A stretch of 64,000 nucleotides of DNA from Malania oleifera (Eukaryota > Streptophyta > Magnoliopsida > Santalales > Ximeniaceae): the NCBI RefSeq assembly GCF_029873635.1, contig NC_080419.1, positions 63,337,040 through 63,401,039 of the forward strand. Direction: 5' to 3'. The notes under the pieces were generated by a model that worked only from the letters and a program-made list of their open reading frames with translations, was not told where the DNA came from and made no database searches. The first letter of the stretch is position 1; the number at the start of each line of letters is the position of its first letter. This document shows, in pieces, positions 4,725 through 60,300 of this stretch. A program made the translations under genes and the position numbers.

Positions 4725-5640
4725 TGTTGACTCTATGTGTAACGACCTGCTTAACTTATCACATAATAACCATAAATAATAATAACATCAACCCGAACCC
4801 GTGGGTAGCGGGGATAGCCTGACATGAACAGCGGAAACCTAAGCAGCAGTAAAAATAAATTACATCCATCAAACCATTAATTACATAATACCAGAGTTTA
4901 CTACATCATCAAAATACTATATTTATATACAACCTCCAAAACATAAAAATAATCTTAGGATCATACAACAAAAATCTCCTGATCCTAGATCAAAATCTTA
5001 CCCTCCTAGTGGGGTAACTCCTCTCACTCAATGGCGGCCACGACCCGCCGGTCTTTCAGGGTCTCCTGAAAAATTAATTTAAGTTCAGGGGTGAGACACT
5101 TCTCAGTAAGGGAAAATAAACTAAATACAACTGTGTGGCAACATGAATATATAATGCAATTATACATATATAATACATTTCATATAACTATAAATATTCG
5201 TCATAACATATTGAATCATCATATACTTTCATATTTTTCTAGTAACTCATATCATTCATAAATCGTCTGTTATATCTGATAATACTGAAAACAAACCTAG
5301 GATGAATAGTTAGCTGATGTCATGTATTACCCCCCTATGACGGGTTGTGCAGGCCGAAGGCGGGACCCGACAATGGCTGGCCGACCACTACCGAGTCAAA
5401 AATGTTTGTAAGTACGATGGGTCCGCCACACCTTGGTTTGGACTTCCAGGTGGACGTTTACAACTCTACACTGAAAGCCACCTCGACTATCCATCTCCCA
5501 CCCCCTCGTGGGGTGGTTAGCATAAGTCTGAACATAGATATCTAATCTATATATATAGCTACGGTACCGAGCTCCTGAAACTGAACTAAACTAACATCTG
5601 GATTCTGATAACATATAATACATGATATTATAACATCTTT

Positions 5641-5850
5641 CATAATTTCATAAATATGGCCTTGCGCCGAAATCATTTCATAAATACGACCTCGTGCCGA
5701 TCGTTTCGTAAATACGGCCTCGTGCCGAACATTTCATAATTATGGTCTCATGCCAAATATTTCATAATTACAGTCTCGTGCCGAATATTTCATAATTACG
5801 GTCTCATGCCGAATATTTCATAATTACGGCCTCGTGCTGAACATTTCATA
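5641..5850. repeat. 28-bp tandem repeat array, about 7.5 copies, in the 3' LTR
   Basis: Units of about 28 bp of the form 'catttcataattacggtctc' plus 'rtgccgaa'. Copies differ mainly by C/T and G/A changes in ACGG/CGTGCC. There are no unique spacers, so it is not a CRISPR-like array. The sister array is at 12765-12976. Confidence 0.9.
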
Positions 5851-6559
5851 CATATCATTTTGAAAATAAATCAATTATCATGTATTTCAAAATCATCATA
5901 CACTGCATTATTACGTAATTCCTGAAAACATGTTTACTCGTAAAATTGTTGTAACGTAATATATTTCATGAAAAATAATACTCATGCCACACAATGCTAA
6001 ATTAAATCATATGTTCCATTCTAAAATTGTAATTACTGTAAACAGCAGTATTTTCCCAAGTATGCATTTATTCCATAATATTCAAATATCGTACATATTT
6101 TTCAGAAAATCAATTTGCTCATAAATAATAGTAATTTGGTTGAAAAATAATTGCTTTAGTTTATTCCCTTGCCTGACTACTGAGAAAGCCCCTAAAATAT
6201 CCTGGTCTAACACCCATAGGATTTCCTGATCAATACCTTGAAAATGAAAATTTTCAGTATTAAACTTCAGTATTTTCATGAGTATATCATTTTCTATAAT
6301 TACCGCAAGACCAAATTTAGCTTAAAAAGCCTTACCTCAACTCAGGGATGATTTTCAACGGAGTTCCACCAACGATCCACTTTGGCAAATATGCAGAGAA
6401 CTTCTCTAAGAGTGTCGTGGTGGTCTCAGATTGTCAATCCGGCAAGCAAGGGAGCCGAAATCGAAGAGAGAAGAGAGAGAAACCGTAGGGAGAGAGAGAG
6501 TGAGTGAAATTTTTCCTTAATTTTGACATTTAATCCGGGTTTTTTATATTTATAGGACA

Positions 6560-6710
6560 GGATTCATCGACGAGCCACGTCATCTCGTCGATGAGTCCTT
6601 CAATAATTTCGTCGATGAAACCCACTCCTCGTTGACGAAATTCAGACTGCTCAAAACCTCTCTCGGTATTTCCTCGTCGACAAATCCCCTATGTTCGTCG
6701 ACGAGGCCCT
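6560..6710. repeat. cluster of TCGTCGACGA-type palindromes in Tekay 3' LTR
   Basis: About six copies, spaced 20-40 bp, of variants of the palindrome TCGTCGACGA (for example CGTCGATGAG and TCGTCGACAA). Several are degraded by CG to TG/CA changes relative to the sister cluster at 13705-13860. Confidence 0.8.
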
Positions 6711-6802
6711 GACAACTTCTCTCGGTTATTCCTTCTGTTACTATTTCCATTTCCCTTCCTCTTTATTTAAATTACATAATAATTATTATTCGGGTCGTCA
6801 CA

Positions 6803-6813: not shown

Positions 6814-7059
6814 TTATAAAATTTCGTCCTCGAAATTCACTATCTATATTTCCTTCTATCATCTCATAAAGGCAAAATGGTCTACTTATTTTATTACTTA
6901 CTCTCACTTATGGCGGAGGAATACCGTGGTTACATTTCAAGTCCTAGGAGATTACATATACCAAAATAAAATTTCCCCCAAAATTAAAATACCACATACT
7001 ACCTAAAACATTACATGTGCCTGCACAAGAAACATCACATATTTACTCACATTTCTTAA

Positions 7060-11863: not shown

Positions 11864-13612
11864 TGTAATGACCTGCTTAACTTATCACATAATAACCATA
11901 AATAATAATAACATCAACCCGAACCCGTGGGTAGTGGGGATAGCCTGACATGAATAGCGGAAACCTAAGCAGTAGTAAAAATAAATTACATCCATCAAAC
12001 CATTAATTACATAATACCAGAGTTTACTACATCATTAAAATACTATATTTATATACAACCTCCAGAACATAAAAATAATCCTAGGATTATACAACAAAAA
12101 TCTCTTGATCCTAGATCAAAATCTTACCCTCCTAGTGGGGTAACTCCTCTCACTCAACGGCGGCCACGACCCGCCGGTCTCTCAAGGTCTCCTGAAAAAT
12201 TAATTTAAGTTCGGGGGTGAGACACTTCTTAGTAAGGGAAAATAAACTAAATACAGCTATGGGGCAACATGAATATATAATGCAATTATACATATACAAT
12301 ACATTTCATATAACTATAAATATTCGTCATAACATATTGAATCATCATATACTTTCATATTTTTCTAGTAACTCATATCATTCATAAATCGTCTCTTATA
12401 TCTGATAATACTGAAAACATACCTAGGATGAATAGCTAGTTGATGTCATGTATTACCCCTCTATGATGGGTTGTGTAGGCCGAAGGCGGGACCCGACAAT
12501 GGCTGGCCGACCACTGCCGATTCAAAAATGTTTGTAAGTACGATGGGCCCGCCACACCCTGGTTCGGACAGCCAGGTGGATGTTTACAACTCTACACTGA
12601 AAGCCACATCGACTATCCATCTCCCACCCCCTCGTGGGGTGGTTAGCATAAGTCTAAACATAGATATCTAATCTATATATATAATTACGGTACCGAGCTC
12701 CTAAAACTAAACTAAACCAACATCCGGATTCTGATAACATATAATACATGATATTATAACATCTTTCATAATTTCATAAATATGGTTTCGCGCCGAAATC
12801 ATTTCATAAATACAGCCTCGTGCCGATCGTTTCGTAAATACGGCCTCGTGCCGAACATTTCATAATTACGGTCTCATGCTGAATATTTCATAATTACGGC
12901 CTCGTGCCAAATATTTCATAATTACGGTCTCGTGCCAAATATTTCATAATTACGGCCTTGTGCCGAACATTTCATACATATCATTCTGAAAATAAACCAA
13001 TTATCATGTATTTCAAAATCATCATATATTGCATTATTACGTAATTCCTGAAAACATGCTTACTCATAAAATTATTGTAACGTAATACATTTCATGAAAA
13101 ATAATACTCATGCCACAGAATGCTAAATTAAATCATACGTTCCATTCTAAAATCGTAATTACTGTAAACAACAGTATTTTCCCAAGTATGCGTTTATTCC
13201 ATAATATTCAAATATCGTACATATTTTTTAGAAAATCAATTTGCTCACAAATAATAGTAATTTGCATGAAAAATAACTGCTTTAGTTTATTCCCTTACCT
13301 GACTACTGAGAAAGCCCCTAAAATATCCTGGTGAAACACCCGTAGGATTTCTTGATCAATACCCTGAAAATGAAAACTCCTCGTATTAAATTTTAGTATT
13401 TTCATGTGTATATCATTTCCTATAACTACCGCAAGACCAAATTTGGCGTAAAAAACCTTACCTCAACTTAGGGATAATTTTCAATGGAGTTCCACCATCG
13501 ATCTGCTAAGGTAGATATGCAGAGATCTTCTCTAGGAGTGTCGTGGTGGCCTCAGATCATCGATCCGGCGAGCGACGGAGCCGGAATCGAAGAGAGAAGA
13601 GAGAGAAATCAC

Positions 13613-13649
<37 letters not shown>

Positions 13650-13946
13650 GTGAAATTTTTCCTTAATTCTGACATTTAATCAGGGTTTTTTTATATTTAT
13701 AGGACTGGATTCGTCGATGAGCCACGTCATCTCGTCGACGAGTCCTTCAATAATTTTGTCGACGAAACCCACTCCTCGTCGACGAAATTCAAACTGCTTA
13801 AAACTTCTCTCAGTATTTCCTCGTCGACGAATCCCCTGTGTTCGTCGACAAGGCCCTGACAACTTCTCTCGGTTATTCCTTCTGTTACTATTTCCATTTC
13901 CCTTCCTCTTTATTTAAATTACATAATTATTATTCGGGTCGTCACA
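11864..13946 (-). repeat. 5' LTR of the Tekay element
   Basis: 2083 bp, partner of 4738-6802. It has the 28-bp array at 12765-12976, GTCGAC-core palindromes at 13705-13860 (including CTCGTCGACGAG at 13731-13742 and TCGTCGACGA at 13821-13830), and a longer (GA)n run at about 13612-13647 than its sister. Confidence 0.92.
12765..12976. repeat. 28-bp tandem repeat array in the 5' LTR
   Basis: The sister array of 5641-5850 with the same unit. Copy order has been preserved since insertion, so it was present in the parent element. Confidence 0.9.
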
Positions 13947-14947
13947 CTATGAGTCCTTCCCCTTTTGATTATGAAAAATCCACTGGTTCTTACCTGTGCA
14001 CTGAGTTCTTTGAACACGACCATTCTTAACACGAAATGGCAAATATTCAGACAAGGCCATAAAGAACTCAATGCTGACATCAAGTTTGGAGAAGTGAAGA
14101 AAATGAAGACCAAACAAATTCAATTGTATTTTCTATTTAATTCATTTGGGTCTATAATATTATATATGGTCTGTAATAATTAATGCATTGCGAGCATGAT
14201 AGGTAGAATAAGCTCAATGACCAAAGGGTGACCTTAGGACCCTATGCACATAAATGAAAAATCTCTTAAGCTCAAATATCACATTAATACAAACAGGGAT
14301 AAAACTTAGGGTCAAAATTACATTTTTAAATAGCTTCGATCGACCAAACCAAACTAGTAATAACTATCTTCGTCGACCGAACACTCTATTGGTATAAAAG
14401 TCCAAGTGTTGACGATGCCTCAGTTGACCGAACTCTAGGTGGTTGGTCGACTGAACTGGTCAAAAGTCAACAAGTTGACTTATCACGGTCGATCAAACTA
14501 GAATGTGTCTAACCCCCCAATTATTCGGCCGACCGTTTGTGTAGTTCAAATTGGCCACAGTTGACCGAACCATATGAGTGGTCAACCGAACCTTAGCCAT
14601 GGTCGACCAAACCTATGAAGGGTTCAAAATCGCCTTGAGACAATCGACCATTTCCATAGTTCAAAATTGCCACGGTAGACCGAACTTAGCAATATGGTCG
14701 ATTGAATCTTGAAAATGGTCGACCGAACCTCTCGGGTTAGCGAAATTTTTACCGAAGTTAAATTGGGTTATTTTTCGTTAAACATAATTAAACATTTTCA
14801 TAAATACCCATTGAGTCCCAAATGGTTATAATTTTTGGAGTGTCTATAGATATTCCTTCATATGTCTTGATTAGCATCTGATTAGCAAACATCATTAGAA
14901 AAAATTGTTTGAATTTTCAAATACCCATTTTTCCCATACAAGCTTAA

Positions 14948-17065
14948 TGTTGACTTTTTGGTCAAATCCTTGTTTTGATTATGACAAACTACAGTATCTC
15001 ATCTATATGCTTTGAGTATTTGAGCAGGTTATGTTTTAGTTAGCACAGATGATGATACAATTTGGAAACCGAGAAACACTTACATAAGCACATCATTCGG
15101 CGCATTCCATAGTTGCCAAGAAGCTGAGCATGAAGCCTTAATTTGTTCTAAGTTGTAATTTTATATATTTTAGTTCGATTTTGCAATAATTTATGGTATG
15201 TAACTAATGCATATCATGCATGGTAGGAATATAAGCTCAACATGACCATAGATTGACCATAGGGAACCGAATGCCATTAGGGCTTCGGTCAACTGACGCC
15301 AGGTTTTTTAGGCTAAGTTAAAATAGCCTCAAAGACCTTAGAAGGCCCTTAGGTCCCTACACATATGCACATATAGTTCCCATTATCAATCACACTACCA
15401 GGGGATTAAATTGAAATGAATTGGACCAAAATACACAAAAATAAGAGAGGTCGGGCAACCAAACCCTTTGTGTTCAAAACACATCAGGCACCCGAACCGT
15501 GGACAAGTCAACATATTGACTTGGATTTGGGCGGCCGAACATATTTGACCGCACCGTCCACAGGCGACCAAATCCCTGACCTGACACCTTTTCATCAACC
15601 CGGGTGCCCGAACTTAGCGTTCAAAATGGCCTTAGGCGAACGAACACTTGAGTTTGGTTAATTGAATCATAGACCGGGTGACTGAAACGTGGATAGAATG
15701 AATTTCACCTTGGTTCAGCCAACCGAACATATACCCAGGCACCCGAACCTTCAAAAGTGGCTTTTTAAACTGAGTCTATTCAGGCGACCAAACCATACTT
15801 CAGCCACCCGAAACTCTTGGGTTGTTTTATTTTTTAACCGACGTAAAATAGGTTAAACAGGGTTAATTTTTCTAAACACTTTTAAAAGAATTTTAAGAAT
15901 TACCCTGGTGTTCCCAACGATCACAATTTGTGCGATGTCTATAAATATATGCTCATTTGCACAGACTAAACATAGATTAGTGAGTTGATTAATAAAAATT
16001 CTCTCTGAATTTTTGAGAGTTCCTTACTCACATTCAAGCCTAAAGTTCTTCATCCATTGCTATTTCTTTACTAAAACAAGTGTGGTAAGAGTGCATTGAG
16101 TTATCCTACATTATTCCCACTTGCTTATACTCTCATAGATTGTGTTGATCATTGATTTTTTAAAAGAGAGTTGAGCCCAAAAATTTATCCCATAGTTTTA
16201 GTTCATGAATTTATTGTGTGGGGGAAATTTCACTAGCTTGCGAGTCTTAGCACTTTATTGCAAGACTCTTGAGCTTGCTTGTGTTTTTTAAGAACATTTT
16301 TTTTTTTCAAGCTTGCTTGCAAATATCTCTTGTGCTTAATCTTTTGAAAATCATTTAGAGATATTTTGTTATACTCTTGGAAATTTTTGAAACATTATTT
16401 GTGGTTGATATATTTATGTAGATTGTTTCAAAGAAACTTTGCTAACTCACTCTCATACATTGATTGCACATTGATATAATATTGAGAGTAGTTTCACACA
16501 TCTTCACTTAGCTTATATTTCCTATCATCTAGAAGTGCATTGATTATACTGTGCTGAACTGTGGTACATAGTCTGCTTAGTTAAGAAGCATTTATGTGTA
16601 TGCAAATTTTCATATCGATTGTATTCTAGGCGTGGGCCTGAATAGTCCCAGATTGGCTTAGACCTGGTTAGGGAAGTTAGGTGCACCATCCTGGTAAGGT
16701 GTGTGTAGATTGAGGTCAACTCCGTGAATTAACCTGGTTGTAACCAGTGCCGCTCCACCTGTTAAGTGAGCATTAGTGGAATCCTCGAGCTTGCAAGTTA
16801 GAGGCGGGGACGTAGACACAGTTGACTGAAGCCCGATAACATATCGTGTGTGCACTTTACTTTTCTATAATTTATTTTCTGCACGTGTATGTTATTTTAT
16901 GAATGTCATGCATGATTTAATTTCCACATATTATCTGCGTGTTTGGGTTTATGTGTATATAGAAAGACTCTAGGTTGTGAAATATTGCTATTGGATTAGC
17001 TAAAAATAGGAATAAATTTTAAATACCCAATTCACTCCCCTTTTGGGAATACACCAAGGCTTACA
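14948..17065 (+). mobile_element. solo LTR of a Sirevirus-like family
   Basis: 2118 bp, TGTTGACT...GGCTTACA, flanked by CTTAA on both sides (14943-14947 and 17066-17070). The empty site is visible in A's 3' LTR at about 24491. There is no internal region, so it is the product of LTR-LTR recombination. Inside: the palindromic cluster 15285-15830, an AACGG-type core at 15916-15920 (decayed to AACGA), a TATA box at 15940-15949, and the conserved downstream block at 16621-16841. It is a different family from A, although its start (GTTTTGATTATGACAAA) is shared. Confidence 0.9.
15940..15949 (+). promoter_or_regulatory. TATA box with AACGA core 19 bp upstream (solo LTR)
   Basis: TATAAATATA. The motif CCCAACGATCA sits at 15913-15923. 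The core 15916-15920 and the TATA are separated by 19 bp (15921-15939), the same spacing as in six other LTRs here. Confidence 0.6.
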
Positions 17066-17407
17066 CTTAAAAATCCTACTCCTACACATTCATCTTGCTA
17101 AATCTCTTTGGTAGAGTGTCTTGAAATCATTCTTAAGTTTACACTCGCATATTCTCTGATTGTTGTTGATTTTTATTGAGAGTAAGCTTGAGTTTTCCCT
17201 TGTGATTTAATTCATAAGTCTTCTTTTGGAAAACTCTTTAGGCCTTGTGAGTTTTGCATTTTTGTTACAAGACTCAAGAGCTTGCCTTGTGTTTTTAGCA
17301 AAATATTTTTGACAAGCTAGAAATCCAAATATCTCTTATACTTAATACTTGATAAATCATTTTTGAGATATTTATTTGTGTTCTTAAAATCTTTGAAACC
17401 ATATTTA

Positions 17408-23473: not shown

Positions 23474-24396
23474 TGTTGACTCTATGAGTCCTTCCCGTTT
23501 TGATTATGACAAATGGTTCTTACATGTGCACTGAGTTCTTTGAACAGGACCATTTTGAACATGAAATGAAAAATATTCAGACAAGGCCATAAAGAACTCA
23601 ATGCTCACATCAAGTTTGGAGAAGCAAAGAAAATGAAAACCAAACAAATTCAATTGTATTTTCTATTTAATTTATTTTGGTCTGTAATATTATATATGGT
23701 CTGTAATAATTAATGCACTGCATGCATGATAGGTAGAATAAGCTCAATGACCAAAGGGTGACCTTAGGACCCCATGCACATAAATGAAAAATACCTTAAG
23801 CTCAAATATCACATTTATACAAATAGGGGTAAAACTTAGGGTCAAAATTATGTTTTTAAATAGTCTCAATCGACCGAACCAAACTAGTAATAACTAGTTT
23901 GGTCAACCGAACACTCTATTGGCAGAAAAGTCAAAGTGTTGACCATGCTTCGGTCGACCGAACTCCAGGCAGTGTAAAAGCCTTGGTTGACCGAACTGGT
24001 CAGAAGTCAACAAGTTGACTTTTCACGGTCGACTGTTCTAAATTGAACGTATCATTCTTGGCCGACCGAACCGGAACGTGTCTGACCTCCCAACTATTCA
24101 GCTGACCATTTGTGTTGTTCAAATTGGCCTTAGTCAATCTCACCATATGAGTGGTCAACCGAACCTTAGCCATGGTCGACCGAACCTACGAAGGGTTCAA
24201 AATCACCTTGAGAAGGTTGACCATTTCCGTAGTTCACAATTGCCACGGTCAACCAAACTTAGCAATATGGTCAACTAAACCTCTTGAGTTGGCAAAATTT
24301 TTACCGAGGTTAAACTGGGTTATTTTTCATTAAACATAATTAAACATTTTTAGAAATACCCATTGAGTCCCAAACAGTTATAATTTTTGGAGTGTC

Positions 24397-24405
24397 TATA
24401 TATAC
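24397..24405 (+). promoter_or_regulatory. TATA box of A 3' LTR with AACAG core 19 bp upstream
   Basis: TATATATAC, preceded at 24373-24377 by AACAG (the equivalent of AACGG elsewhere). The gap 24378-24396 is 19 bp. Confidence 0.6.
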
Positions 24406-24840
24406 TCCTTCATTTGTCTTGATTAGCATATGATTAGCAAATATCATTAGAAAAATTTTCTGAATTTTCAAATACCCATTTTTCACATACAAGTTTAAAA
24501 ATCCTACTCCTACACATTCATCTTGCTAAAACTATTTGATAGAGTATTTTGAAACCATTCATAAGCTTACACTCTCATATTCTCTTATTGTTGTTGATTT
24601 TTATTGAGAGTAAGCTCGATTTTTCCCTTGTGATTTAATTCATAAGTCATCTTTGGGAAAACTCTCTAGGGCTTGTGAGTCTTACATTTTTGTTGCAAGA
24701 TTCAAGAGCTTGCCTTGTGCTTTTAGCAAAATATTTTTGACAAGCTAGAAATCCAAATATCTCTTATACTTAATACTTGATAAATCATTTTTGAGATATT
24801 TGTTTGTGTTCTTAACATCTTTGAAACCATATTTGTGATT

Positions 24841-24841
24841 G

Positions 24842-24907
<66 letters not shown>
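24841..24907. repeat. (CA)n(TA)n compound microsatellite
   Basis: About 40 bp of CA repeats followed by about 26 bp of TA repeats in A's 3' LTR. Confidence 0.95.
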
Positions 24908-24911
<4 letters not shown>

Positions 24912-25530
24912 TCAAAGAATCTATCGTAACACACTCTCACATATTACTTGCTATATTTGCATTTTCTTGAGAGTAGTTACATTAATCTTCACTGAGCTTA
25001 TAACTCCAATCATATTGAAGTGCATTGATTGTATTGGTACATATATGCTTATTGGAGAAGCACACATATTGTACACGAAAATTTATATTTCATTATCAGT
25101 TGTATTCCAGGCGTGGCCTAAGGGGGTGTTGATCTAGCCCGTAAGGATTGTTTGTAAAGGTTGGCGTTAGCCCTGTTAGTCTAACCTGGGGTTTCCCTTG
25201 CCTAGTAAAGAAAGGGTGTTGTATTCGGTGTCGCTCCACCCGCAAGTGAGCTTTAGTGGAATCCTAGGGCCTGTGAGCTAGAGGTGAGGACGTAGGCACA
25301 TTTACCGAACCTTCTAGTGTCATCTTTACTTTATTTGCTTTGGTATATTGTGCTTGCTTGTTTAAATTTATCTGGAGTAATTTAACTACAGTTGCATCTA
25401 TCTGTTTATTCTATACTTGCACTAGATTGACTCTAATTTGTGAAAATACTGCTGCTGGTTAGTTGACCTAGGAAGAAAATTTTTTAAATATCCAATTCAC
25501 CCCCTTCTTGGGATTACACTAAAGTCAACA

Positions 25531-30213: not shown

Positions 30214-32043
30214 TGTTGGAATTAGCATGTTCCCAAGAGGGGGTGAATTGGAAATTTAAAACTTTTGCCTAGGTCAATTCAGATTCCTCAACCAGTATTG
30301 CACAAACTTAGGGTCTTTCTATTTAATCAAAAACTTAATCAAATATTAAAACAATTAAACTCAAACACTCAAGTGCTGAAATTTAAAGTAGAAATTAAAA
30401 GTAGGCACAAGAAATGTTATCGGGGTTCGGCCAATACTGCCTACATCCCCACCTCAACTCGCAAGTCTGAGGATTACCACTATTGCTCATTTAATGGGTG
30501 GAGCAGCACCAGTTACAACCAGGTCAAATTACTAGGGCTGACCTCAACCTTTATAACTTGATCCTTATGGGCTAGATCAATACCCCCTCAGGCCACGCTT
30601 GGAATACACAGATCAATATAAACTTTTACGTACAATTCAAATGCTTCTACATAAGCATATATGTACCACGATAAGCTCAATAAAATTACAAATTGCACTT
30701 CCGTATGATATGAAAGTATAAGCTCGATGAAGTCTAAATGTGACTACTCTCAAGATAATGTCAATATTATCAAGCAATATGTGAGAATGGTGTGAGTATA
30801 TCTTTGTGTTAGAAATGTGTATATCAATCACAAGCAATAACCACAAAGAATTCAAAAGAACAAATATTAAGTATAAAGTATACAAGATATTTGAAATCAA
30901 GCTTATTTGAAAAGTATTTCACAAAGCACAAAAACTAGCCTTTGAATACTTGCAACGATAAAGCAAGAATCACAAGCTCTAGAGAGTATTCCCACTGAAG
31001 ACTTATGAATTAAATCACAAGGGAAATTTCAAGCTCACTTTTAATAAAATGAACTATAATGAAAGTGTGAGCTAATATGAACAATCTCAATAATACTCTT
31101 ACCAAAAGATTTTAGCAAGTAGGATGAGTAAGTGATGGATTATTGGCTTGTATGTGAGAAAATAAGGGTTTTGAATTTTAGAGAGTTTTGGCTAATGATA
31201 TTTTCTAATCCCCCATTAATCTTTCCAAATGAATTGGTATATATAGAAATTCATAAAAATATAACCGTTGAGGGACGTAGGAGTCTTTTTAGAAAAGATT
31301 AATGAAGGTTAAATAAAATTAACCTTGTTTTACTGCAGTTAAAAATGTTCAACCTGAGAGGTTTTGGTTGACTATATTTTAAGTTCGGTCAACTGAGGCA
31401 TTTTTGAACTGAAGGTTTGGTCAACTAAAACAAGGTGATTTCTGAACCCTTTGAGGTTCGGTCAGCTGTATCTAACTTCGGTTTACTATACTTTATGGTT
31501 CGGTTGACTCAATCAAAAATGAATTGGAAGTTCGGTCGACTGAGTTTGGTCGACTGAGAAAAATACGTTAAAAAAGATTCAGCTGACCGAGTGAAGTCAA
31601 AATGTTGACTTCCACTCAGTTTAGTCGACTGAGAAATTTTACACTGGCAGGATTCGGTCGATCGAATTAGTCCACAACTTATTTTTGGCCCAAATAAAGA
31701 CCTAAGTTAGATCCGTATTAAAGTGAGTTACTAGCCTATTTACTTGAGGGATTCCTATAGTCATTCTATGGTCTTTTTGAGCTTATGCAATCTATCATGC
31801 AAGTCATGCAATTTATTACAGACCAAATTGAAAGCAATACAATGAAAACTTCCTCTTCTTTCTTTTGCTTTTCAGATTCCCATGGATTATACTAGGAGTA
31901 TGCGCTCATTGAGATCTTTTTGGCAACACATCACTTTCATGTGTGTGTTCTGAATGATTAATTTGTTCAAGTACTTTAGTACACACATTAGTAACATCGG
32001 TTTGTCATTATCAAAACCAGGGATCAGACTAAAAAAGTCAACA
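30214..32043 (-). mobile_element. 3' LTR of minus-strand Sirevirus-like element C
   Basis: 1830 bp. On the minus strand it begins TGTTGACT at 32043 and ends ATTCCAACA at 30214. A purine tract abuts it at 32044. Palindromic cluster 31340-31670, AACGG at plus-strand 31265-31269, TATA box at 31238-31245, and conserved block 30415-30608 follow in the same order as in the plus-strand LTRs. Confidence 0.85.
31238..31272 (-). promoter_or_regulatory. AACGG core and TATA box of LTR C
   Basis: Minus-strand CTCAACGGTTA (31272-31262), then TATATATA (31245-31238). The gap between AACGG and TATA is 19 bp (31246-31264). Confidence 0.65.
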
Positions 32044-32840: not shown

Positions 32841-34840
32841 TGTTGACCTCATAGATCACACCCAGTTTTGATCATGACAAATACTCTTAGTACTAATGTT
32901 TGTACTAAGGCATGCAGGTTCACCTTACTCGCGTATTCAAACTAAAATATATATCATGATGGCGTGTGGTGATCAAGCAGAATAATGAAGAAATCTATGT
33001 TGTAATTTGTAATTTTTATTCATTTTCTTCATTCTGGGATGTAAATTTAATTATGGATTGTACACCTATGGCTTGTAATAATTTGCATCATGCATGATAA
33101 GTGGGTATGCTCAAATCGACCCTAGTTGGACTTTAGGTACCTACACATAGTACACATGGTTCCTAACATCACTTATTATATCAGGGGAGTTAAATGAAGC
33201 AAAATTAGACTTTAAATGAAAATATTGTGAGAGGTCGGGTGACCGAACCTGTGGCATTCAAAATGCCTTAGGCAACCGAACCGTGGACAAGTCAACATGT
33301 TGACTTGTGTTCGGCAGACCGAACCATTTTTGAACATATCTTCCTAGGTCAACCGAACCCGTGTTAGAGTACTTTTCACCAACCCAGGTGCCTGAAACTT
33401 TGTGTTCAAAATGGTCTCAAGCGACCGAACTTGTTAGTTCGGTTAACCAAATTGTACTCCGGGCACCCGAACTGCGGTCTTTTTGGGAATTGCCTTTGTT
33501 CGGCTCACCAAAGCATATATCAGGTGACTGAACCTCAAAAATACCTATTTTGCATTGAGTCTGTTCGGGCACCCGAATCTTGGACCGGACACTCGAAACT
33601 CTCAGGTTGAATTAATTTTAACCGAGATAAGATGAGGTAAACTGGGTTAATTTTTCTAATATCTTATTAAACTTTTCGAATAATTCTTATTGGGTTCCCA
33701 ATGGTCATAAATCAGCCCTTGCCTATATATACATGTTCATTTGCTTATATTAGTAGTGATTAGCTAGATCATTAAGGCCAAAATTCTCTCAAATTCAAAA
33801 ATCATTTTATAGCCTATACTACTCCCATACACTCATACACTCCATTTTCTTTGATCATTCAAGTTTCTGAGTATATTTAGTGTGCTTGTGCTTCATTCTA
33901 ATTTGCTCATACTCTTGTTTGTTGTATTGATTGATTGATTTTTCTTGAGAGTAAAACATTAAGTTCTTCCATTGATTTTATTTGATAAATCTTGTGTGGG
34001 AAGACTTAGAGGCTTGTGGTTCTTGCATTGTCATTGCAAGTTACCTTAGCCTATATTTTTTTGTGCAAAAATCATTTTCAAGCTTGCATTCAAACATCCA
34101 TTGTGCTTAGTATATTGAGAACATCTTGTTGAGATTGTTTGAATCATCTTGCTAGCATTTTTGAAACCTTGATATGATATTGTGATATTCAAATATTTTG
34201 TTTCAAATCTTGCTTTGATATACACTCTAGATATTGATTGATTATTCTTACTTGATTGAGTGTTTAACACACATATTTGAGCACTGAGTATATTTACATA
34301 TCATTCGTGCTTGCATTATTGCTTGAGCTATACTTGTGTACATATCTGCTTTTGGAGGAGCATATTTCCTTGTATGCAAAATTTTATACACATTTGCTGT
34401 ATTCCAAGTGTGGGCCTGAAGAGGGAGACTAGCCCTGTGGAATAGCCCCAGATTGGTTTAGACCCGGTTAGGAAAGTTAGGTGCACCATCTTGGTAAGGT
34501 GTAGGTTGAGGCCAACCCCACTAATTGACCTGGTTGTAAACGGTGCTGCTCCACCTATTAAGTGAGCTTATAGTGTAATCCTTGTGCAGGTGTTCCAAGG
34601 CAGGGATGTAGGCAATATTTGCCGAACCTCGATAACATATCTGGTGTCAGTTTTATTTTTCACAATTGATTTTCTACACTTGTATGTTTACATTTATTGC
34701 CTGAATATCAGATTGAGTTTGCAATTACATAGAAAGACCCTAAGCTTGTGTAATACTGATTGTTGGATTAGTTGAACCTAGGGGATAAATTTTTTAAATA
34801 CTAATTCACCCCCCATCTTGGGATTGCACTAAAGCTAACA
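32841..34840 (+). repeat. 5' LTR of element E
   Basis: 2000 bp, TGTTGACC...GCTAACA. Palindromic/CCGAAC cluster at 33230-33600, AATGG core at 33700-33704, TATA box at 33724, conserved block at 34399-34636. Confidence 0.9.
33700..33732 (+). promoter_or_regulatory. AATGG core and TATA box of E 5' LTR
   Basis: CCCAATGGTCA spans 33697-33707; AATGG is the CpG-decayed form of AACGG in the sister LTR. TATATATAC starts at 33724. The gap is 19 bp (33705-33723). Confidence 0.65.
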
Positions 34841-41220: not shown

Positions 41221-42826
41221 TACAACAACAACAACGAAACCAAGCCTTAGTTCCACTAAGTGGGGTCGGCTATATAAATCCTTTTCCGCCAATTTATGCG
41301 ATCATGGATCATTTCTTTTGATAGATTCAAAGATATTAAATCCTTACTCACTATCTCCTCCCAAGTTATTTTAGGTCTACCCCTACTCCTTCTACTGCCC
41401 CCCATAGTAACTAAGTCACTCTTCCTCACAGGTGCACTATAAGGCCTACGTTGCAAGTGTCCATACCATCTGAGTCGTCCTTCCCTTATCTTATCTTCTA
41501 TAGGAGCTACACCTAACTTACCACAAATATGTTCATTCCTTAATTTATCTTTCAATGTTATACCACTCATCCATCTAAGCATCCTCATCTCGGCAACTTT
41601 TACTTTTTGGATATTATGTTTCTTCCTCGCCCAACATTCTGATCCATATAGCATAGCTGGTCTTATAGCTGTCCTATAAAACTTCCCTTTCAATTTTAAG
41701 GGTATTCTACGATCACATAGAACACTTGAAGAACTTCTCCATTTTACCCAACCTGCTTTAACTCTATGCATTACATCATCTTCAATTTTTCCTTCAGCTT
41801 GCATAATAGATCCAAGGTATCGAAATCTATAAGTGCTATTTATTTCTTCATCATCAAGTTTAACTTTGTCTCCAATATTCCTCCTATCATTGCTAAAATT
41901 ACATTTCATATATTCTGTTTTATTTCTACTTATCTTAAAGCCTCTAGATTCCAAAGCTTCTCTCCCTAATTCTAACTCAGCCTCTACTCCATCCCTAGTT
42001 TCATCAATTAATACAATATCATCTGCAAACAACATACACCATGGAACCTCCTTTTGAATACTTTTAGTCAATTGGTCCATCACTAAAGCAAAAAGATAAG
42101 GACTCAAAGCAGATTCTTGATGTACACCTATGGTAATTGGAAATTCTCTAGTTTCTCCTTCTATAGTCTTTACACTAGTCATTACTCCATCGTACATATC
42201 CTTAATGACATCGGTATACCTACAACATACACCCTTTTTTTCTAAAACCCACCATAGAACTTCCCTAGGTATCCTATCATATGCTTTCTCAAGGTCAATA
42301 AATATCATATGCAAGTCCCTCTTCTTTTCTCTAAACTTTTCCATTAATCTTCTTAAAAGATAAATAGCTTCTGTGGTAGATCTCCCAGGCATAAAACCAA
42401 ATTGATTTTCTGAGATCTTCGTTTCTAACCTTAATCTTTGTTCAACTACTCTTTCCCATAGTTTCATCGTATGACTCATAAGTTTAATTCTACGATAGTT
42501 ATTACAATTTTGAATATCTCCTTTATTTTTGTATATAGGTATTAAAGTGTTTTTCCTCCATTCATCTGGCATTTTCTTAGTTTTTACAATTGTATAAAAT
42601 AAATTAGTTAACCATATAATTCCGTTATCACCCAAGCATTTCCAAACTTCAATTGGGATGTTATCTGGTCCCATAGCTTTCCTATTTTTCATCTTTTTTA
42701 GTGCAAACTTAACTTCGTTAACTCTAATTTTTCGAATAAATCTTATATTTTTAGTCTTTTCCTCATTTGACAATTCTAAATTTAAGCCTTCTATTTGGTT
42801 TTCGTTAAACAACTTACTAAAGAAAA
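41221..42826 (-). mobile_element. 5'-truncated RTE-type LINE with open reverse transcriptase frame
   Basis: On the minus strand a continuous frame of about 523 codons from about 42826 to 41256 encodes a non-LTR RT: KNRKAMGPDNIPIEVWK, NYRRIKLMSHTMKLWE, FGFMPGRSTTEAI, DLEKAYDR, and catalytic CMLFADDIVLI with both Asp intact, then the RTE-like C-terminal region (RWYGHLQRRP). The endonuclease is missing, so the copy is 5' truncated. It ends in the (TTGTTG)n-type tail (plus-strand TACAACAACAACAACG at 41221), typical of plant RTE elements. The first codons of the open frame (MKWLPLRIC) belong to the flanking element. Only the 4-bp TGCA is shared by the two flanks. Confidence 0.9.
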
Positions 42827-43663
42827 TGCATATTCTTAGGGGGAGCCACTTCACTTTAAATCATACGGCTTTAAGAAAAATGAAATGTATTTTATACTCT
42901 AATTCTATATCTTGTGGAAATACATTAACAAGTGGTAAATGTGCACGTTTGTAAACTTTTAATTGGCATCATTTTAATAAAAAGCTAACAAGTGGTAACA
43001 AGATAACTAGTGGTTTCTAACAATTGGTATCATATTTTTCTACCATGTAGTTGTAACAAATGGTATCAGTCCCACATATCTTTTCTTGTTTTATATCTCA
43101 TGGGAATGCATATTTTTGCTAGCAAGCGAAACTCAAAAATGATTATGATAGATTTTTGAAATCTTTTTGAAAGGTTGAGTGAAAGCCAAATGTAAAATTA
43201 ATCTTCATCCTTGCATAATCATCAATTGGGGGAGAATAGGAAATTTAGATTGCTAAATCTTTTATGCTGCATGATAATATTAGCCTTTAACTTATGTACT
43301 ATTTGAGTTGATTGGTTGAAATGTGCTATATACTGTTGGTTGAAACTCAAAACAGGTCACTTAGGTACAAAATGGTCTACTTTCAAATGGCATGTTGCCA
43401 ATTTTTTTAGAAATCCTCCCATATACCTTTTGTATCTAAATGATTTCCTTTGCCTTCATGCTATATTTCTTAACCCTTTTTGCTGTTGTCAAAAGGGGGA
43501 GAAGAGGCAAAACTGGGTACATTGATAAATTTAAATTTAATAACCCATTGATAAATTAGTTAATTTGAGCTTTAATTGTCTTTATGCATAAAGTCACAGA
43601 GAGTCCTTCTTGGCTGTACCCACTTTTGCATAAAATATTTGTCATCATCAAAATGGGGGAGAT
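42827..43663 (+). promoter_or_regulatory. 3' region and polypurine tracts of element E, second part
   Basis: Purine tracts: TAGGGGGAGCC at about 42837, AAAAGGGGGAGAAG at about 43491-43504, and the terminal AAAATGGGGGAGAT at 43650-43663 abutting the LTR. 43637-43653 is the left arm of the inverted repeat described in the findings. Confidence 0.8.
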
Positions 43664-45012
43664 TGTTGACCTAATAGGTCACACCCAGTTTTGATCATGA
43701 CAAATACCCTTGGAACTAATGTTTGTACTAAGGCTTGCATGCATGCTCACCTTACGCGCGTATTCATACTAAAATATACATCATGATGGCGTGTGGTGAT
43801 CAAGCGGAAGAATGAAGAAATATGTGTTGTAATTTGTAATTTTTATTCATTTTCTTCATCCTAGGATGTAAATTTAATTATGGCCTATACACCTATGGCT
43901 TGTATTAATTTGCATCATGCATGATAGGTAGGTATGCTCAAATCGACCCTAATTGGACTTTAGGTACCTACACATAGTGCACATAGTTCCCAACATCACT
44001 TATTATATCAGGGGAGTTAAATGAAGCTAAATTGGACTTTAAATGAAAATATTGTGAGAGGCCGACCGACCGAACCTGTGGCTTTTAAAACACCTAAGGC
44101 GACCGAACCGTGGACAAGTTAACATGTTGACTTGTGTTTGGCAGACTGAACCATTTTTTAACATATCTTCCTAGGTTGATCGAACTCGTGTAAGAGTACT
44201 TTTCACCAACCCGAGCGCCCGAACCTTAGCATTCAAAATGGCCTCGGGTGACCGAACTTGTTAGTTCGGTTAACCGAATTGTACTCCGGGCACCTGAACT
44301 ACAGTCTTTTTGGGAATAGCCTCTGTTCAGCTAACTGAAGCATATTTCAGGCAATCGAACCTCAAAAATACTTGTTTTGCATTGAGTCTGTTCAGGCACC
44401 CGAATCTTAGACCGGGCACCCGAAACTCTCAGGTTGAATTAATTTTAACTGAGATAAAATGGGGTAAATTGGGTTAATTTTTCTAATCTCTTATTAAATT
44501 TTTCTAATAATTCCCATTGGGTCCCCAACGGTCATAAATTAGCCCTTGCCTATATATACATGTTCATTTGCTTTGATTAGCAGTGATTAGCTAGATCATT
44601 AAGGCCAAAATTCTCTCAAATTCAAAAATCATTTTATAGCCTATACTACTCCCATACACTCATACACTCCATATTCCTTGATTATTCAAGTGTTGTGAGT
44701 ATATTTAGTGTGCTTATGCTTCATTCTAATTCGCTCATACTCTCATTTGTTGTATTGATTGATTGATTTTTATTGAGAGTAAAGCATTAAGTTCTTCCAC
44801 ATATTTTATTTGATAAATCTTGTGGGGGAAGACTTAGAGGCTTGTGGTTCTTGCATTGTCATTGCAAGTTACCTTAGCCTTTATTTTTGGGTGCGAAAAT
44901 CATTTTCAGGCTTGCATTCAAACATCTCTTGTGCTTAGTATATTGAGAACATCTTGTTAAGATTGTTTGAATCATCTTGCTAGCATTTTTGAAACCTTGA
45001 TCTGATATTGTG
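43664..45012 (+). repeat. partial 3' LTR of element E
   Basis: Aligns with 32841 to about 34182 of the 5' LTR, then is cut at GATATTGTG (45012) by element F. It holds a cluster with perfect TTCGGTTAACCGAA (44265-44278), an intact CCCAACGGTCA at 44524-44534 and a TATA box at 44551. The remaining third of the LTR is not found in the window. Confidence 0.88.
44524..44559 (+). promoter_or_regulatory. AACGG core and TATA box of E 3' LTR
   Basis: CCCAACGGTCA fits the published M-phase-specific activator consensus YCYAACGGYYA at every position. TATATATAC starts at 44551. The gap after AACGG (44527-44531) is 19 bp. Confidence 0.65.
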
Positions 45013-47041
45013 TGTTGACCTCATAGGTCACACCCGGTTTTGATAATGACAAATACTCAAGTATTTGATGGCTATCTAGTTTATGTGAAGGTTTATATTC
45101 GCAGATACTTTGATGGCACATGAAGTAGAGTATGAAGACCCTGAAGATAATTTTATATTGTAATTCATTATTATTCAATTTAGGTCTGTAATAGTAAACA
45201 TAGGAAACGATCTGTAATAATCTCTGCATGTCATGTATGTAGGTAATTGTAAGCTCAAGACCTTAAAAAGACCTTAGAGATCACCCTCGACCGATGCCGA
45301 ATTTTTTAGGTGTCCTCATAGATCCTAGAAAGACCTTAGGTCCCTACAAAAATGCACAAAATAGTCCCCATGATCACTTATAATATCAAGGGAATTAGTT
45401 GAAGTGAAAATGGACTAAATAGGCAAAATTTGTGAGAGGTCGGGTGACCGAACACGTTGTGTTCAAAACACTTCGGGCGGCCGAATGGCTAAGAAGTCAA
45501 TGGGTTGACTTGATTTTGGGCGACCGAAAAATATATGAACGTACCATCTACGGGTGACCGAAGCCCTGAACTGGCTTTTTCCACCAACTCAGCCAACCGA
45601 ATGTTTACATTCAAATTGGGCCTCAGGCGACCGAACACATGAGTTCGGTTAACCAAATCATAGACCGGGCGACCAACACACGGACAGAATGGAATTACCT
45701 CAATTTAGCATACCGAACATACACTCAGGCACCTGAATGTTCAAAAGTTGCTTTTTGAACTGAGTCTACTCGGGCGACCAAACCAAGGTTCAGCCACCCA
45801 AAAACTCTCGGGTTGTTTATTTTTTACTGAGGTTAAAATTGTTTAAACGTGGTTATTTTTCCTAATTGACTTTTAAATAATTCTAATAATGCCCTATGAG
45901 TCCTTAACGGTCATAATTTGTACAACTTCTATACATAGAGCCTCATTTGTGCAAATTAGCAAGAGATTAGTGAAAATCATTAGCAAAAATCCTCTCAATC
46001 TCAGAAAGCTTATTTTGCCCAATCTTCTTCAAATACTCTCATACATTCATTCCTTTGATAAATCCTAGTATTGTGAGAGTGCGTATTGTGCTATTGCTTA
46101 GTATAGATTGCTTAATACTCCCATTACTCTTGATTGATTTATTTATTTATTTTGGGGAGTTAAGCAAGGTTTATCCCACAAATTTTATTTGATAAATCTA
46201 GTGTTGGGAAAAACTTAGTAGCTTGTGGATCTTTGCATTGTCATTACAAGATTCCTATAGCTATATTTTTGGTGTGCAAAATATTTTACAAGCTATGTTT
46301 TTCAAAAAATTCTTGTGCTTATTTCATTTGAGAAAAATATTTTTGAGTTGATTTGAATATTGTTTGCAGCATCTTTGAAACCCTAATCTAGTATTGAGAT
46401 TTGATATATCTAGTTTCAAAGAAATAGCTTGTTTAGAACACTCTTGAGCATACTTGTGATTATATCTTGTTGAGTGTTGCTTGAACAAAAATCACATCGT
46501 AGAGCTTACAATTTCCTACTGTTGATGTGTGGTTGATTGATTACATTTGGTACATATATGCTTGATTAAGAAGCATAATCACTGTACCCTGTCATATTGT
46601 GAAAAATACTGTTGTATTCCAGGCGTGGCTTGAGGGGGCGGTAATCCATCCCGATAAGGATTGTATGTAAAGGTTGAGGTTAGCCCTGTGTTAGTATGAC
46701 CTGGTTGTAAAGTTTAAGGTCAGCCCTGTGCTAATTGACCTGGTTGTTTAGGTGCTGCTCCACCCGTTAAGTGAGTCGTAGTGAAATCCTTGTGCTGGTG
46801 TAGCCAACGCGGGGACATAGGCAATTTGGCTGAACCTCGATAACATATTTGGTGTTAGTTTAATTTCTGCACTTTATTTTATGCACCTGTATATTTATGC
46901 TTTGATTAAATATCTGTCTGGGATTGAAATCGCTTAGACTGCCTTTAGGTTGCGTAATACTGATTGTTGGATTAGATAAACTTGTGAGGTAATTTTTTAA
47001 TCTCCAATTCACCCCTTGTTAGGATTGCACCAAAGCTAACA
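45013..47041 (+). repeat. 5' LTR of element F
   Basis: 2029 bp, TGTTGACC...GCTAACA. CCGAAC-type cluster 45430-45800, AACGG at 45906-45910, TATA-like TATACATA at 45930, conserved block 46613-46845. Confidence 0.87.
45906..45937 (+). promoter_or_regulatory. AACGG core and TATA-like box of LTR F
   Basis: CTTAACGGTCA at 45903-45913 and TATACATA from 45930, with a gap of 19 bp (45911-45929). Confidence 0.6.
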
Positions 47042-56380: not shown

Positions 56381-56581
56381 ACTTAAAAGTTAAGTTCGGT
56401 TTGTTATTCGATCTTCATTTCAATTTCCATTTCCATTTTTCTACTGCGTAACAGTAACAATATTGCAGCGGGTTGGTTATTCTGACTGCTCCTCTCGACT
56501 TGAGACTGCAGCAAAAGCTACAAAGATCTCTCATCCTCCCCGTCTTTCTTTCCTCTCCTTCTTCCATTGCACTTGCATGTA

Positions 56582-57335
56582 ATGAACAGTCTGAGCTTTG
56601 TATTTGGTACGTCTCAGTCTCAGCTCCCACGCATCGATGCCCACTACTGGCATCATTCTTGCCCTCCGATCTCATGCTCCATTCGTAATCAGAATCCTGC
56701 CAATAGACGCTCCCACGCCGCCAAATCTAAACTCAAATTCAAGCCCAAACCCTCCTCCTCTGCCTCTGATCGGAACCTTCATATCGTTATCGACCCTGCT
56801 TACCTCTCCCACCAAGTCTCCTCATCGATACAGCAACTCTTCTGCGCATCGCACTCCAAGTTTCGTCACTTTGTGTTCTCCAGCAAAGAGGCTTTTGAAG
56901 ATCTGCAGACGATGGTCTCCATCGATCGTGATCGGCGAGTCGTCATCTCCTGCCGCCGCTCTACGCTGGAATTCGTCAGTTATTTGATTCTGTGGTGCTG
57001 TGCGATTGTTCTTGCTTTTAGGGTTTTTGGGAATTTGAGGGTAGGGTTTTGGAGTCGATTCGAGCTTGGATATGGTGCCTTGGTTCGGAGGGACCGGAGT
57101 CTTGCGGGTCGAGAGGTTGTTGTGGGGAAGAATAAGAAGAATAAGGGTTTTTGGGTTATGGGTAATCCACTTTCTCCCGCACGAGGGACCGTCCCTGTAA
57201 TTTCAGAAAGGTTGCCTATGAAACGGGCGAGGATGGAGGAGAAGTTGCCAGGGTGGTGGCCCGTATCGCTTCCATCTCCGGTTATGACAGGGAACAAGGA
57301 GGAGCATCAAAGAGAGGCCAACAGATTAATTCGAG
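56582..57335 (+). CDS. first exon of a host gene, probable organelle-targeted protein
   Basis: ATG at 56582 (MNSLSFVFGTSQSQLPRIDA) is the first Met of a frame that is open for 251 codons up to the splice donor GAG|GTAAGT at 57336; the split codon is phase 1. Residues 1-65 are rich in Ser, Arg, Lys and Pro and poor in acidic residues, as in a chloroplast or mitochondrial transit peptide. A hydrophobic segment at about 131-149 (FVSYLILWCCAIVLAFRVF) could be a membrane helix. A conserved-looking end follows (EEKLPGWWPVSLPSPVMTGN, then EEHQREANRLIR). Codon use and GC content differ clearly from the retroelement DNA around it. I do not recognise the family with certainty. Reading on past the donor gives only six more codons before a stop (57353). 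Confidence 0.75.
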
Positions 57336-60300
57336 GTAAGTTCTTGTTATTTTAGCATAGAATGTTGGTAGTATTTGTGTAGCATTTTGCAAGGACTGCT
57401 GTCCCTTTCAGTATGCTAGAAAACTGTGGCACTCACTAAATGTGAAACGCAAGAAAGTATTAGGAAAGTGCTTTTAAACCAAACTGTACCTAATTGCACT
57501 CTGTTATGACATGATCATTTAAAGCATTATGTGTTTTCTAAGTTTCTGACTTGTAGAGTTGCTGCATTTGATATCATCTTGAATTGACAGTTTTTTGTCA
57601 AAGGGTGTTGGGGTTTTGTATGCAATTGAATTCGTCATGGTTCTCGTGAGAGGGGTTTTTCTATTTTTATTTATTTATTTATATATATAGAGAGGAAGAG
57701 GAGGAGCTTTAATGGACGTAGCAAGGACGCACTCCTTGCTAGTTTTTGTTTGCTTGTTTTTGGTTTTGTTTCTGTTTTTGTTTTTTGGTTCAGGTGGGGT
57801 GGGTGAGGGTTATCATCGTGAGAATTACAACAGTGAGGACTAGCTGTAGAATTTTAAAAAGTTAAGAAGTTTATGCTTTATATACCCCAATCATTTTTTC
57901 TTCAAATCTATCATTATAATGTTCTCTTTACTATATTACTCAAGGAGCTATCTCAAATTCCTTGTTTTGGGGAGATGCCACAAGCTGGGATCATGTAAGA
58001 CCCTGATAGTGTAGCCAACAATGCTAACAGTTTATATATAATATATTACAAAATTAAGACAAGTGTGGCTAGGACATTATTTGCTAGTGCTAGGCTGAAA
58101 TGGTAACTGCATCAGTGAATCAAGGTCTTGTCTATGTGTGTGCGTGTGCATGGCAATAATAACTTTGTATAATTGTTAGGATAGCAACAGGTTGACGTCC
58201 CAACGAAATTAATTCTCATATCCCTCCCATTCTCATGGATGAAATTTTTTTCATTCTCATCCTCGATTCATCAGGAAGTAAAGTAGATCCTTGGTCATGC
58301 CTCGCACCATCATCCATGTTCTTGCTTTGCACCTGTGCCACCCATAATGATATAAATCTCTCTCGCTGTCTCTCATGCAAGTGTTGGGGGGGGGGGGGGG
58401 TTTGTAAGAGGTGTATTGAGTAAAATAAATCAAAAGGGCATATCTATAAATAGATTTTCAATAAAGTTTAGGGAATTAGCAGCATAAATAAAATGAATTA
58501 TTTTATCTAAAATTAACAATATAAATGAAAAAAGTTATGCTCATGATAAAGAAATTGCCAACATTTAGTTATGGGGATTGGTTTGGGATGGGGATTTACC
58601 TGTCTCAGTGCTTATTGGCAGGGTGAAATTAATCTTTTAATGTAAGAGCAATTTGGGCATGTAATTTGGCCATGTGTGCCTGCTAACATGGTTAGATCAG
58701 CTGAATAGTTAGCCTAGAATTTAAAGATTTAGTTTTGTTTTAAGTATTTGTTCTTTTTTTAAATTAACTTTAATGACTTTTCTAATGAACTTCTGCCTAG
58801 ACTTTTAAATAGTCTTATTACTAGCTTGTTACTTTGTAAATGAATGGAGGGCTAGGAATAAAAGCATTAAAAGTGAGATTAAGGCTAGGATTATAGGGCT
58901 TCTGCATCTTGATATAAAATACTCTCTTGGAGGCTCTTATATGCTGTTCTCTGGAGTTAATTCAGTTTTTCTTTTGAGTTCCTTAGGGGTGGTTTAGTAT
59001 TATTGTCAAAAATTATGAAAAGAAAACCAAAACTAAAAAGCAGACACAAAAGCTAAAAATTGAACACCTATTTGGTTAATATTTATAAAATTAAAAAAAA
59101 TTAAAAAATTGACTTAAATAGCAATTATTATAATTATTTTACTTAAATATTATAATTAAAAAAAAATTCACTGTTTAGTGCTACAACTACAAGAACAATA
59201 TTTGATGGAAAGATGCTCTATCAATCCAAACTAAATCGAATCAGTGGTTTCACTTGGAGTGGGGATGGTGTGTCTGCTGTCATAGAACCAGGGGCGAAGC
59301 TAAAGAAAAATGCAGAAGTGATTTCCCCTTGCAAAACCGCTTCGTAAGTAGATTAGTCTAAGCTAGTCTTAGTCTTTTTTTTTTTTTTTTCCTTTTTATT
59401 TTATTTTATTTTTTGAGAGATATTGGTTAAGGAGCTAGTAGTTAGGGTAAATCCTAATGTTATTATACCTCAAGAATCCAAATTGGCAGAAGCAGATGGT
59501 TTTTTAGTTAGCTGTATTTGGTAATCTAGGTTCAAAGAAGTTATCCTTTCTTCCTTGGGAGTGTCAGGTGTCAGGCGGTATAGGGGTTTAATGATATGTT
59601 GGGGTGGCTATTAGTAGATATTTTATTTATAGGTGCTTTTTCGATGCTTGTGTTGCTAGATGGAAGGCTTGGTGGGAGTGTTGGAGTACATCCATCTACA
59701 AGCCCATTGATTTTTTTATTTTTATTTTTGGGGTTGGGGGGGGGGGGGGTCATGGTTCCATATTATTTGAATTTGTGAGAAATCAGGTGTAGACCAGGGT
59801 GACTGCTAGCATGAGGAAGTTTTTATTTATTTATTTTTCCAGGTTGTTGGCTTTTAGATATTCTTTTGCTTGATGGTCAAAGTCACTTCGACAGTATCAG
59901 GGTATAGGTGATTCCCTTGCATTTATTGTTGCCCTACTTCGGACGATTGTTCTCTGCAATTAGATTCTAAACCAGTTATGTGGGTTCTATTCCTTAATAT
60001 TTGAGAATATGTGGTCAGCCTGATACTCTTTTAGGAGTAAGATTGAAAAATGGTGGAGAGAGTGTCGGCTTTGTGGTTGGGAAGGTTTCAATTTTATAAA
60101 AAAAATGAAATTCTTGAAGAAAACTGAAAACATGGAATCGTAGGCAGGTCCCACTTGCATTTTCTGTTTTTCAAACATTGTTCATGAGGTTTTGTATAAA
60201 CCTATTTCAGACCATGGTCATGTGCTATTAGATTTATGTGGGTCTCATTCCTTCGCATTTGAGAATTCGGCCCACCACTCATTTATGACAAAAGATTGAG

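Follow-up and report, generated by a model that had tools for sequence, protein, structure and literature searches.

Why do seven retrotransposon LTRs, lying on both strands of a single stretch of plant DNA, carry an AACGG-type pentamer at one and the same distance from the TATA box? The stretch, referred to below as the window, comprises 64,000 nt of the Malania oleifera genome (GCF_029873635.1, NC_080419.1, 63,337,040-63,401,039, forward strand). A retrotransposon LTR is transcribed from a TATA box in U3, and the original prediction for this locus took the fixed gap of 19 bp, found in Copia LTRs assigned to several families, together with the best copy of the site, to indicate the plant M-phase-specific activator (MSA) element bound by three-repeat MYB proteins, with transcription possibly tied to G2/M.

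LTR Sites and the Elements That Carry Them

The best copy belongs to the 3′ LTR of element E, where AACGG (44527-44531, plus strand) is followed after 19 bp by a TATA box (44551-44558) and where CCCAACGGTCA (44524-44534) matches the 11-base MSA consensus, YCYAACGGYYA, without a single mismatch, as predicted. On the same strand lie AATGG in the E 5′ LTR (33700-33704, a C/T difference from the 3′ copy; TATA at 33724), AACGG in LTR F (45906-45910; TATA at 45930), AACGA in a solo LTR (15916-15920; TATA at 15940), AACAG in the A 3′ LTR (24373-24377; TATA at 24397), and AATGG in the A 5′ LTR (14821-14825; TATA at 14845). LTR C carries AACGG on the minus strand (31265-31269; TATA at 31245). All seven predicted coordinates and all seven 19-bp gaps proved exact on re-reading, and so did the gap of 18 bp in the most divergent LTR, B (AACGG at 3639-3643, TATA from 3620, minus strand). 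The core is intact in E 3′, F, C, and B; the forms in E 5′, A 5′, A 3′, and the solo LTR had been described as single transitions, which they are. Measured against this consensus, E 3′ has no mismatch, E 5′, F, the solo LTR, and C have one each (hence 0-1 mismatch in five of eight LTRs), A 5′ and A 3′ have two, and B has four.

The E 5′ LTR (32841-34840, plus strand) runs from TGTTGACC to CTAACA, with a decayed PBS after it. The first part of the E 3′ LTR (43664-45012, plus strand) is preceded by TGGGGGAGAT, a polypurine tract (PPT) with one change, and is split at 45013 by the insertion of F, which is therefore younger than E; the F 5′ LTR (45013-47041, plus strand) is followed by the PBS-like ATTGGTATTAGAGC. 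The solo LTR (14948-17065, plus strand) is nested in the A 5′ LTR and is flanked by a 5-bp target-site duplication, CTTAA (14943-14947 and 17066-17070). The A 3′ LTR occupies 23474-25530 on the plus strand and the C LTR 30214-32043 on the minus strand, the latter preceded by AGGAGGAGAT, again a PPT with one change.

The ends of these elements bear the hallmarks of Sireviruses, a plant Ty1/copia genus, as published by Bousios et al. in 2010 (PMC2829016). The PPT AGGGGGAG stands exactly 10 bp before the 3′ LTR and is accompanied by the AT/TG attachment site. Tract and attachment site together are exact in B (AGGGGGAGAT at 4327-4336, minus strand, with the LTR starting at 4326) and one base off in each of A 3′ (PPT at 23464, attachment dinucleotide AA and not AT), E 3′, and C; the 5′ LTRs F, E 5′, and A 5′ are expected to lack a PPT, and the solo LTR has none. 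After the 5′ LTRs of F, A, and E, the exact PBS, TATCAGAGC, was not found, its place being taken by TATTAGAGC in F and TATCAAAGC in A 5′, one base off, and by TATCAAAAT in E 5′, two bases off. Upstream of the TATA box, E 5′, E 3′, F, the solo LTR, A 3′, and C contain 9-13 CGG-CCG sites of the repeated-motif (RM) type, compared with 1.6-2.4 in shuffled controls for those six LTRs; LTR B has only two, against 1.1 in shuffles, which is not significant. Finally, a polyC-rich end, AATTCACCCC, closes five of the six LTR ends read (A 5′, A 3′, E 5′, F, and C), the solo LTR ending in AATTCACTCCCC in its place; the E 3′ end is cut by F, and the B end was left out of this count. ORFs within A and F match Copia gag, and RVT_2 was matched in A. 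Judged by these terminal sequences, the seven LTRs are identified as Sirevirus-type Copia.

The window has other occupants as well. A Gypsy-like LTR pair (4738-6802 and 11864-13946) encloses minus-strand RVP_2 and RT ORFs; each of its LTRs contains a 28-bp tandem array and one plus-strand AACGG, which is not near a TATA box. A LINE-like RVT_1 ORF of 532 aa (41256-42854, minus strand) lies between the two LTRs of element E, and an ORF at 56567-57355, probably a host exon, shares 48-49% identity with uncharacterised proteins from Protea and Nelumbo.

Homology and Spacing within the Window

The seven LTRs are homologous: an nhmmer model built from their 300-bp promoter stretches finds the same seven again (E 2e-59 to 5e-78), even though identity between lineages is 54-66%, and four of the seven constitute two 5′/3′ pairs. 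All seven rows align without gaps over a block that begins 62 bp upstream of the motif start and extends to 69 bp downstream of it; with 132 columns (44465-44596 when mapped on E 3′, plus strand), it is the longest stretch of the LTR alignment free of gaps, the next longest having 76. The 19-bp spacing in the window has therefore been inherited and does not represent seven independent events, and the homology of the LTRs rules out the fixed spacing as independent evidence. As to the original prediction, the gap is indeed exact in all seven LTRs but belongs to one related lineage; the LTRs, which do lie on both strands, probably all come from this one Sirevirus lineage. A decamer, GGTTA(A/T)TTTT, about 55 bp upstream of AACGG, is likewise constant in the seven.

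Identical spacing and a gap-free alignment are what one would expect if AACGG were just a stretch of a conserved core promoter, kept by shared descent, with no MYB function of its own and an accidental likeness to MSA. Conservation within the window is compatible with this explanation, being middling: by plain column identity, the MSA 11-mer ranks only 69th of 589 windows of the LTR alignment, and when AACGG is counted by lineage, 44 of 1,299 windows are better and 53 equal. On the evidence of the window alone, the motif could not be called specially conserved. Nor is the MSA word over-represented, with one perfect match in 64 kb (expected 0.2) and seven matches with at most one mismatch (expected 6.6, SD 2.7). 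It is the placement that is over-represented: five of those seven matches sit at LTR promoters, and AACGG with a TATA at a gap of 18-19 occurs four times in the window, against 0.64 expected and a maximum of three in 200 simulations.

LTR B is instructive here, since it is missed by the model of the seven. With a model of a short block containing the motif, only the seven training copies score better than B (E 0.15, against 0.37 for the match after it); with the same block lacking the motif, it is absent from the 14 best matches. In a B-like 1-kb stretch, the chance of AACGG at a gap of 18-19 before TATAWA is 0.001 (0.002 for gaps of 17-20). According to these models, what B has in common with A-F is the motif and little else.

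Genome-Wide Counts

The prediction had proposed that AACGG at the 19-bp spacing be counted genome-wide against controls. In the host genome (1,494,336,490 bases, or 1.49 Gb), searched with reversed patterns as controls, the arrangement CCCAACGGTCA-N16-TATA, corresponding to the gap of 19, is present at 6,930 places, and its reversed pattern at none. The word CCCAACGGTCA itself occurs 8,346 times (reversed word, 157), so that 83% of its occurrences have TATA exactly 16 bases later. When the gap was allowed to vary from 6 to 35 (2-31 free bases before CTATA), 7,134 places were found (control 9), and among the 100 of these that were listed the gap was 19 in 92, 29 in six, 18 in one, and 20 in one. 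The 92 listed places with a gap of 19 contain 71 different spacers, with an average of 7.5 differences over the 16 positions. The C-to-T form AATGG was counted 1,750 times (control 8) in this N16-TATA frame, and AAAGG and AAGGG together 192 times (control 5). All eight places fetched match the window LTRs by BLAST, and these figures count copies of related families, not independent events. The arrangement is most likely, on this sequence evidence, a conserved promoter feature of a single Sirevirus LTR lineage, amplified to thousands of copies.

Copies outside the host were looked for in viral contigs, with no match in a DNA pattern search, four pattern matches in a protein search, and 26 in an alignment search, none of the latter two sets being confirmed. 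A single match in an Opitutia MAG among genome contigs does not match the promoter model and was taken as chance.

Promoters Sampled without the Motif

Two samples of promoters were collected without using the motif. In twenty 10-kb stretches of contig C1, there are eight promoters of the window type, five with AACGG and the others with AATGG, AATGA, and AACAA. The second sample consists of stretches spanning LTR positions 500-1299 that are anchored on AGGGGGAGATTGTTG; of the 7,622 occurrences of this word in the genome (control 0), 100 were listed, 80 fetched, and 79 used (L066, overlapping L065, was dropped before the counts), and the TATA-spacing count drew on the first 60 fetched, with 59 used. 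A search of both samples with the motif masked in the query yielded 18 promoters outside the window. All 18 have AAYRR within four bases of the expected place, 16 exactly in register, and nine retain intact AACGG. A rerun of the masked-query search returned 25 places, including the window's seven, with none dropped; two PPT-anchored stretches that match A-F promoters or LTRs, L063 and L076, have no placed promoter.

Column counts were made on the 23 in-register promoters (16 from outside the window and its own seven), L014 (gap 20) and L025 (gap 17) being left out. Both A columns are invariant (23 each), followed by C 17/T 6, G 18/A 5, and G 18/A 5, which amounts to 16 transitions and no transversion in the C/G/G columns. 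This constancy of purine/pyrimidine class across all five columns, amid flanks upstream of TATA that average 60% identity, speaks against shared descent as the whole explanation. Only two of 103 five-column windows are free of transversions, AACGG and ATTAG at +25. At position -18, a Y in the MSA consensus, T is found in 12 promoters, C in 10, and another base in one.

Downstream, TCATTTG and ATTAG, which span +13 to +19 and +25 to +29 from TATA, respectively (44551-44590 and equivalents), form a well-preserved part of the promoter: most of their columns, like those of TATA, are better kept in the 23 promoters than AACGG.

Methylated cytosines mutate mainly by transitions. The transition-only pattern of the motif is partly such a CpG mutation bias, a point in favour of shared descent: of 25 further conserved CpG columns in the LTR alignment, 17 likewise show only CG, TG, or CA. 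The contrast between the motif (16 transitions, no transversions) and 27 other C/G columns (98 and 117; Fisher test, p 7e-6) is not strong evidence, because of the CpG bias, the post hoc choice of columns, and the relatedness of the rows. The last G of AACGG, in a CHG context, is also a possible methylation site, and only the two invariant A's escape the argument. The defective forms agree with the methylation decay proposed originally: all are transitions, and within the single insertion A, one CpG has decayed in two ways, to AATGG in the 5′ LTR and to AACAG in the 3′ LTR.

Other LTRs of the Same Genome

A universal Sirevirus motif was ruled out. AACGG stands 15-23 bp before TATAWA in only three of the 59 PPT-anchored stretches, and only 13 of 79 have a BLAST match to the A-F LTRs. 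The 66 stretches without such a match include 24 with AACGG, against 14.7 expected (54th of 1,024 words), and seven with CCGTT; this excess of AACGG is mild and inflated by relatedness.

Sites of the same type do recur in distinct LTR groups. Group X comprises 12 loci, 11 without a BLAST match to A-F and one (L034) with a single 38-bp match; its TCCAACGG-type sites lie 22-31 bp before the first TATA (22 in five loci, 27 in one, 28 in two, 29 in three, and 31 in one). AAYRR is present in all 12 aligned loci, and in seven of seven when the five seeds are set aside. In group Y, AACGG is found in six and a transition form in four of 13 aligned loci (six of them seeds), with no clear TATA distance; this is a loose set, in which the seeds differ in context (L050) and three of 13 loci lack AAYRR. 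In a further LTR group (L054, L083, and others), gttcAACGGgcaaa is followed about 40 bp on by TAGCCGTTTGA, an inverted AACGG core.

Of the 100 listed places, the six with a gap of 29 all have a second AAYRR 11 bp downstream, at a gap of 18. A strict helical phasing derived from the gaps of 19 and 29 was ruled out by this second site and by the group X distances. Two fetched loci, L110 and L111 (C1:8708071-8708111 and 8095976-8096016), show the tandem AACGG-type sites 11 bp apart, at gaps of 29 and 18; a further similar stretch was read by eye upstream, and neither a PPT nor a clear PBS was found in the fetched stretch.

AACGG on the sense strand close to the promoter is thus seen repeatedly, yet no general rule holds for whether it is present or how far away it lies. 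The second sites in the gap-29 places, together with AACGG-type sites before TATA in B and group X without BLAST alignment to A-F (except for the 38 bp of L034), weigh further against shared descent alone, which we regard as improbable. The fixed gap does not hold as originally worded, because other Sirevirus LTRs of the same genome have AACGG elsewhere or lack it, and because tandem sites occur and MSA elements, as published, vary in both number and orientation. What stands of the original interpretation is a conserved MYB3R core, AACGG, just upstream of TATA; the gap as a general rule does not.

Proposed Mechanism

The promoter data make it very probable that AACGG is a conserved functional element of the LTR promoter, and its sequence is predicted, with good though lesser confidence, to be a MYB site. 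AACGG has been identified as the MYB3R core by yeast one-hybrid in tomato (PMC9730800), and for Arabidopsis SCL28, MYB3R ChIP-seq has been described along with a reporter whose activity is lost on changing AACGG, the altered form being ATTGG (PMC8964727). The flanks appear largely to fit the fuller MSA consensus, including the position that keeps both T and C. That the binder is a MYB3R protein is an evenly balanced call, and G2/M-timed transcription of the LTR is put forward more tentatively still.

A two-repeat R2R3-MYB might be the binder instead, in which case the LTR promoter would answer stress or hormone signals and not the cell cycle. The broader MYB core, YAACNG, includes AACGG, and the decayed AACAG copies resemble the Rider type. 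There are precedents, namely, Tto1 activated by NtMYB2 and the MYB core sites of Rider LTRs; yet the latter, CTGTTG and CTGTTA, read CAACAG and TAACAG on the other strand (PMC6762207), and in the present site the fourth base is seldom anything but G or the transition product A. AACTG fills the N16-TATA frame at 124 places (control 1) against 6,930 for AACGG and is found in none of the 23 promoters. With the MSA-like flanks also against it, R2R3-MYB control seems unlikely. MYB3R is favoured over R2R3-MYB because AACTG is rare, which is not proof; the rarity may reflect a lack of mutation as well as selection.

The preferred reading, in which a single lineage of Sirevirus-type Copia carries AACGGTYA as an MSA-type site that is bound by MYB3R and timed to G2/M, has, taken whole, about an even chance of being right. 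U3 would carry a conserved promoter block in which AACGGTYA, about 19 bp upstream of TATA, acts as an MSA-type activator. The protein bound there, beside the core promoter, would be a MYB, most probably one with three repeats (MYB3R), and transcription of unmethylated copies would take place chiefly in dividing cells at about G2/M. Common ancestry and constraint on the promoter block, not any requirement of MYB3R, would preserve the gap of 19 bp, and methylation after insertion would let the CpG in the site decay to AATGG or AACAG.

MYB3Rs include activators and repressors, which share one binding element (PMC5608833, PMC9730800), so the site could also keep LTR transcription off in non-dividing cells instead of activating it at G2/M; a selfish element would presumably gain little from a site that only represses, and this role appears very unlikely. 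A broader speculation, rather doubtful at present, builds on the activator reading: the Sirevirus lineage may have adopted the host's mitotic MYB3R programme as the logic of its core promoter, one MSA site at a constant distance from TATA driving genomic RNA in dividing (meristematic, pre-germline) cells, with the cDNA meeting chromatin at nuclear-envelope breakdown.

A mitotic MYB link for this LTR lineage is plausible, and with a specific candidate factor for the conserved site, Sirevirus regulation becomes open to direct testing. If the link is true, plant LTR promoters, for which stress cues have been described, would gain a cell-cycle cue as well. The elements, which hold 83% of the CCCAACGGTCA words, would then amount to a very large stock of potential MYB3R sites that methylation normally hides, and scans for MYB3R targets in such genomes could be dominated by LTRs.

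Comparison with Known Systems

With the Sireviruses of Bousios et al., the window elements share the PPT and AT/TG attachment site, the CGG-CCG repeated motifs upstream of a conserved TATA box, and the polyC-rich LTR end with PBS remnants (PMC2829016). The main text of that paper describes the repeated motifs, for which it names no common binding factor, and the TATA box, but it contains neither AACGG nor MYB. About 21% of the maize genome is reported to consist of Sireviruses (PMC3599292). Among the open-licence articles listed, judged by title and opening of the abstract, no report of MSA elements in, or MYB3R control of, LTR retrotransposons was found.

MYB-type sites in a Copia LTR promoter are themselves familiar from Tto1 (NtMYB2) and Rider, as here, but the type of site differs: Rider has been linked to drought and ABA and Tto1 to biotic stress, both via R2R3-MYB (PMC6762207). 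With the MSA elements of host genes, the LTR site has in common the core AACGG, largely matching flanks, and a promoter-proximal position, and in two fetched loci also the presence of more than one copy. MSA elements in host genes are usually close to the transcription start and vary in number and orientation (PMC10905365), whereas the LTR site is usually single, forward, and at a set distance from TATA.
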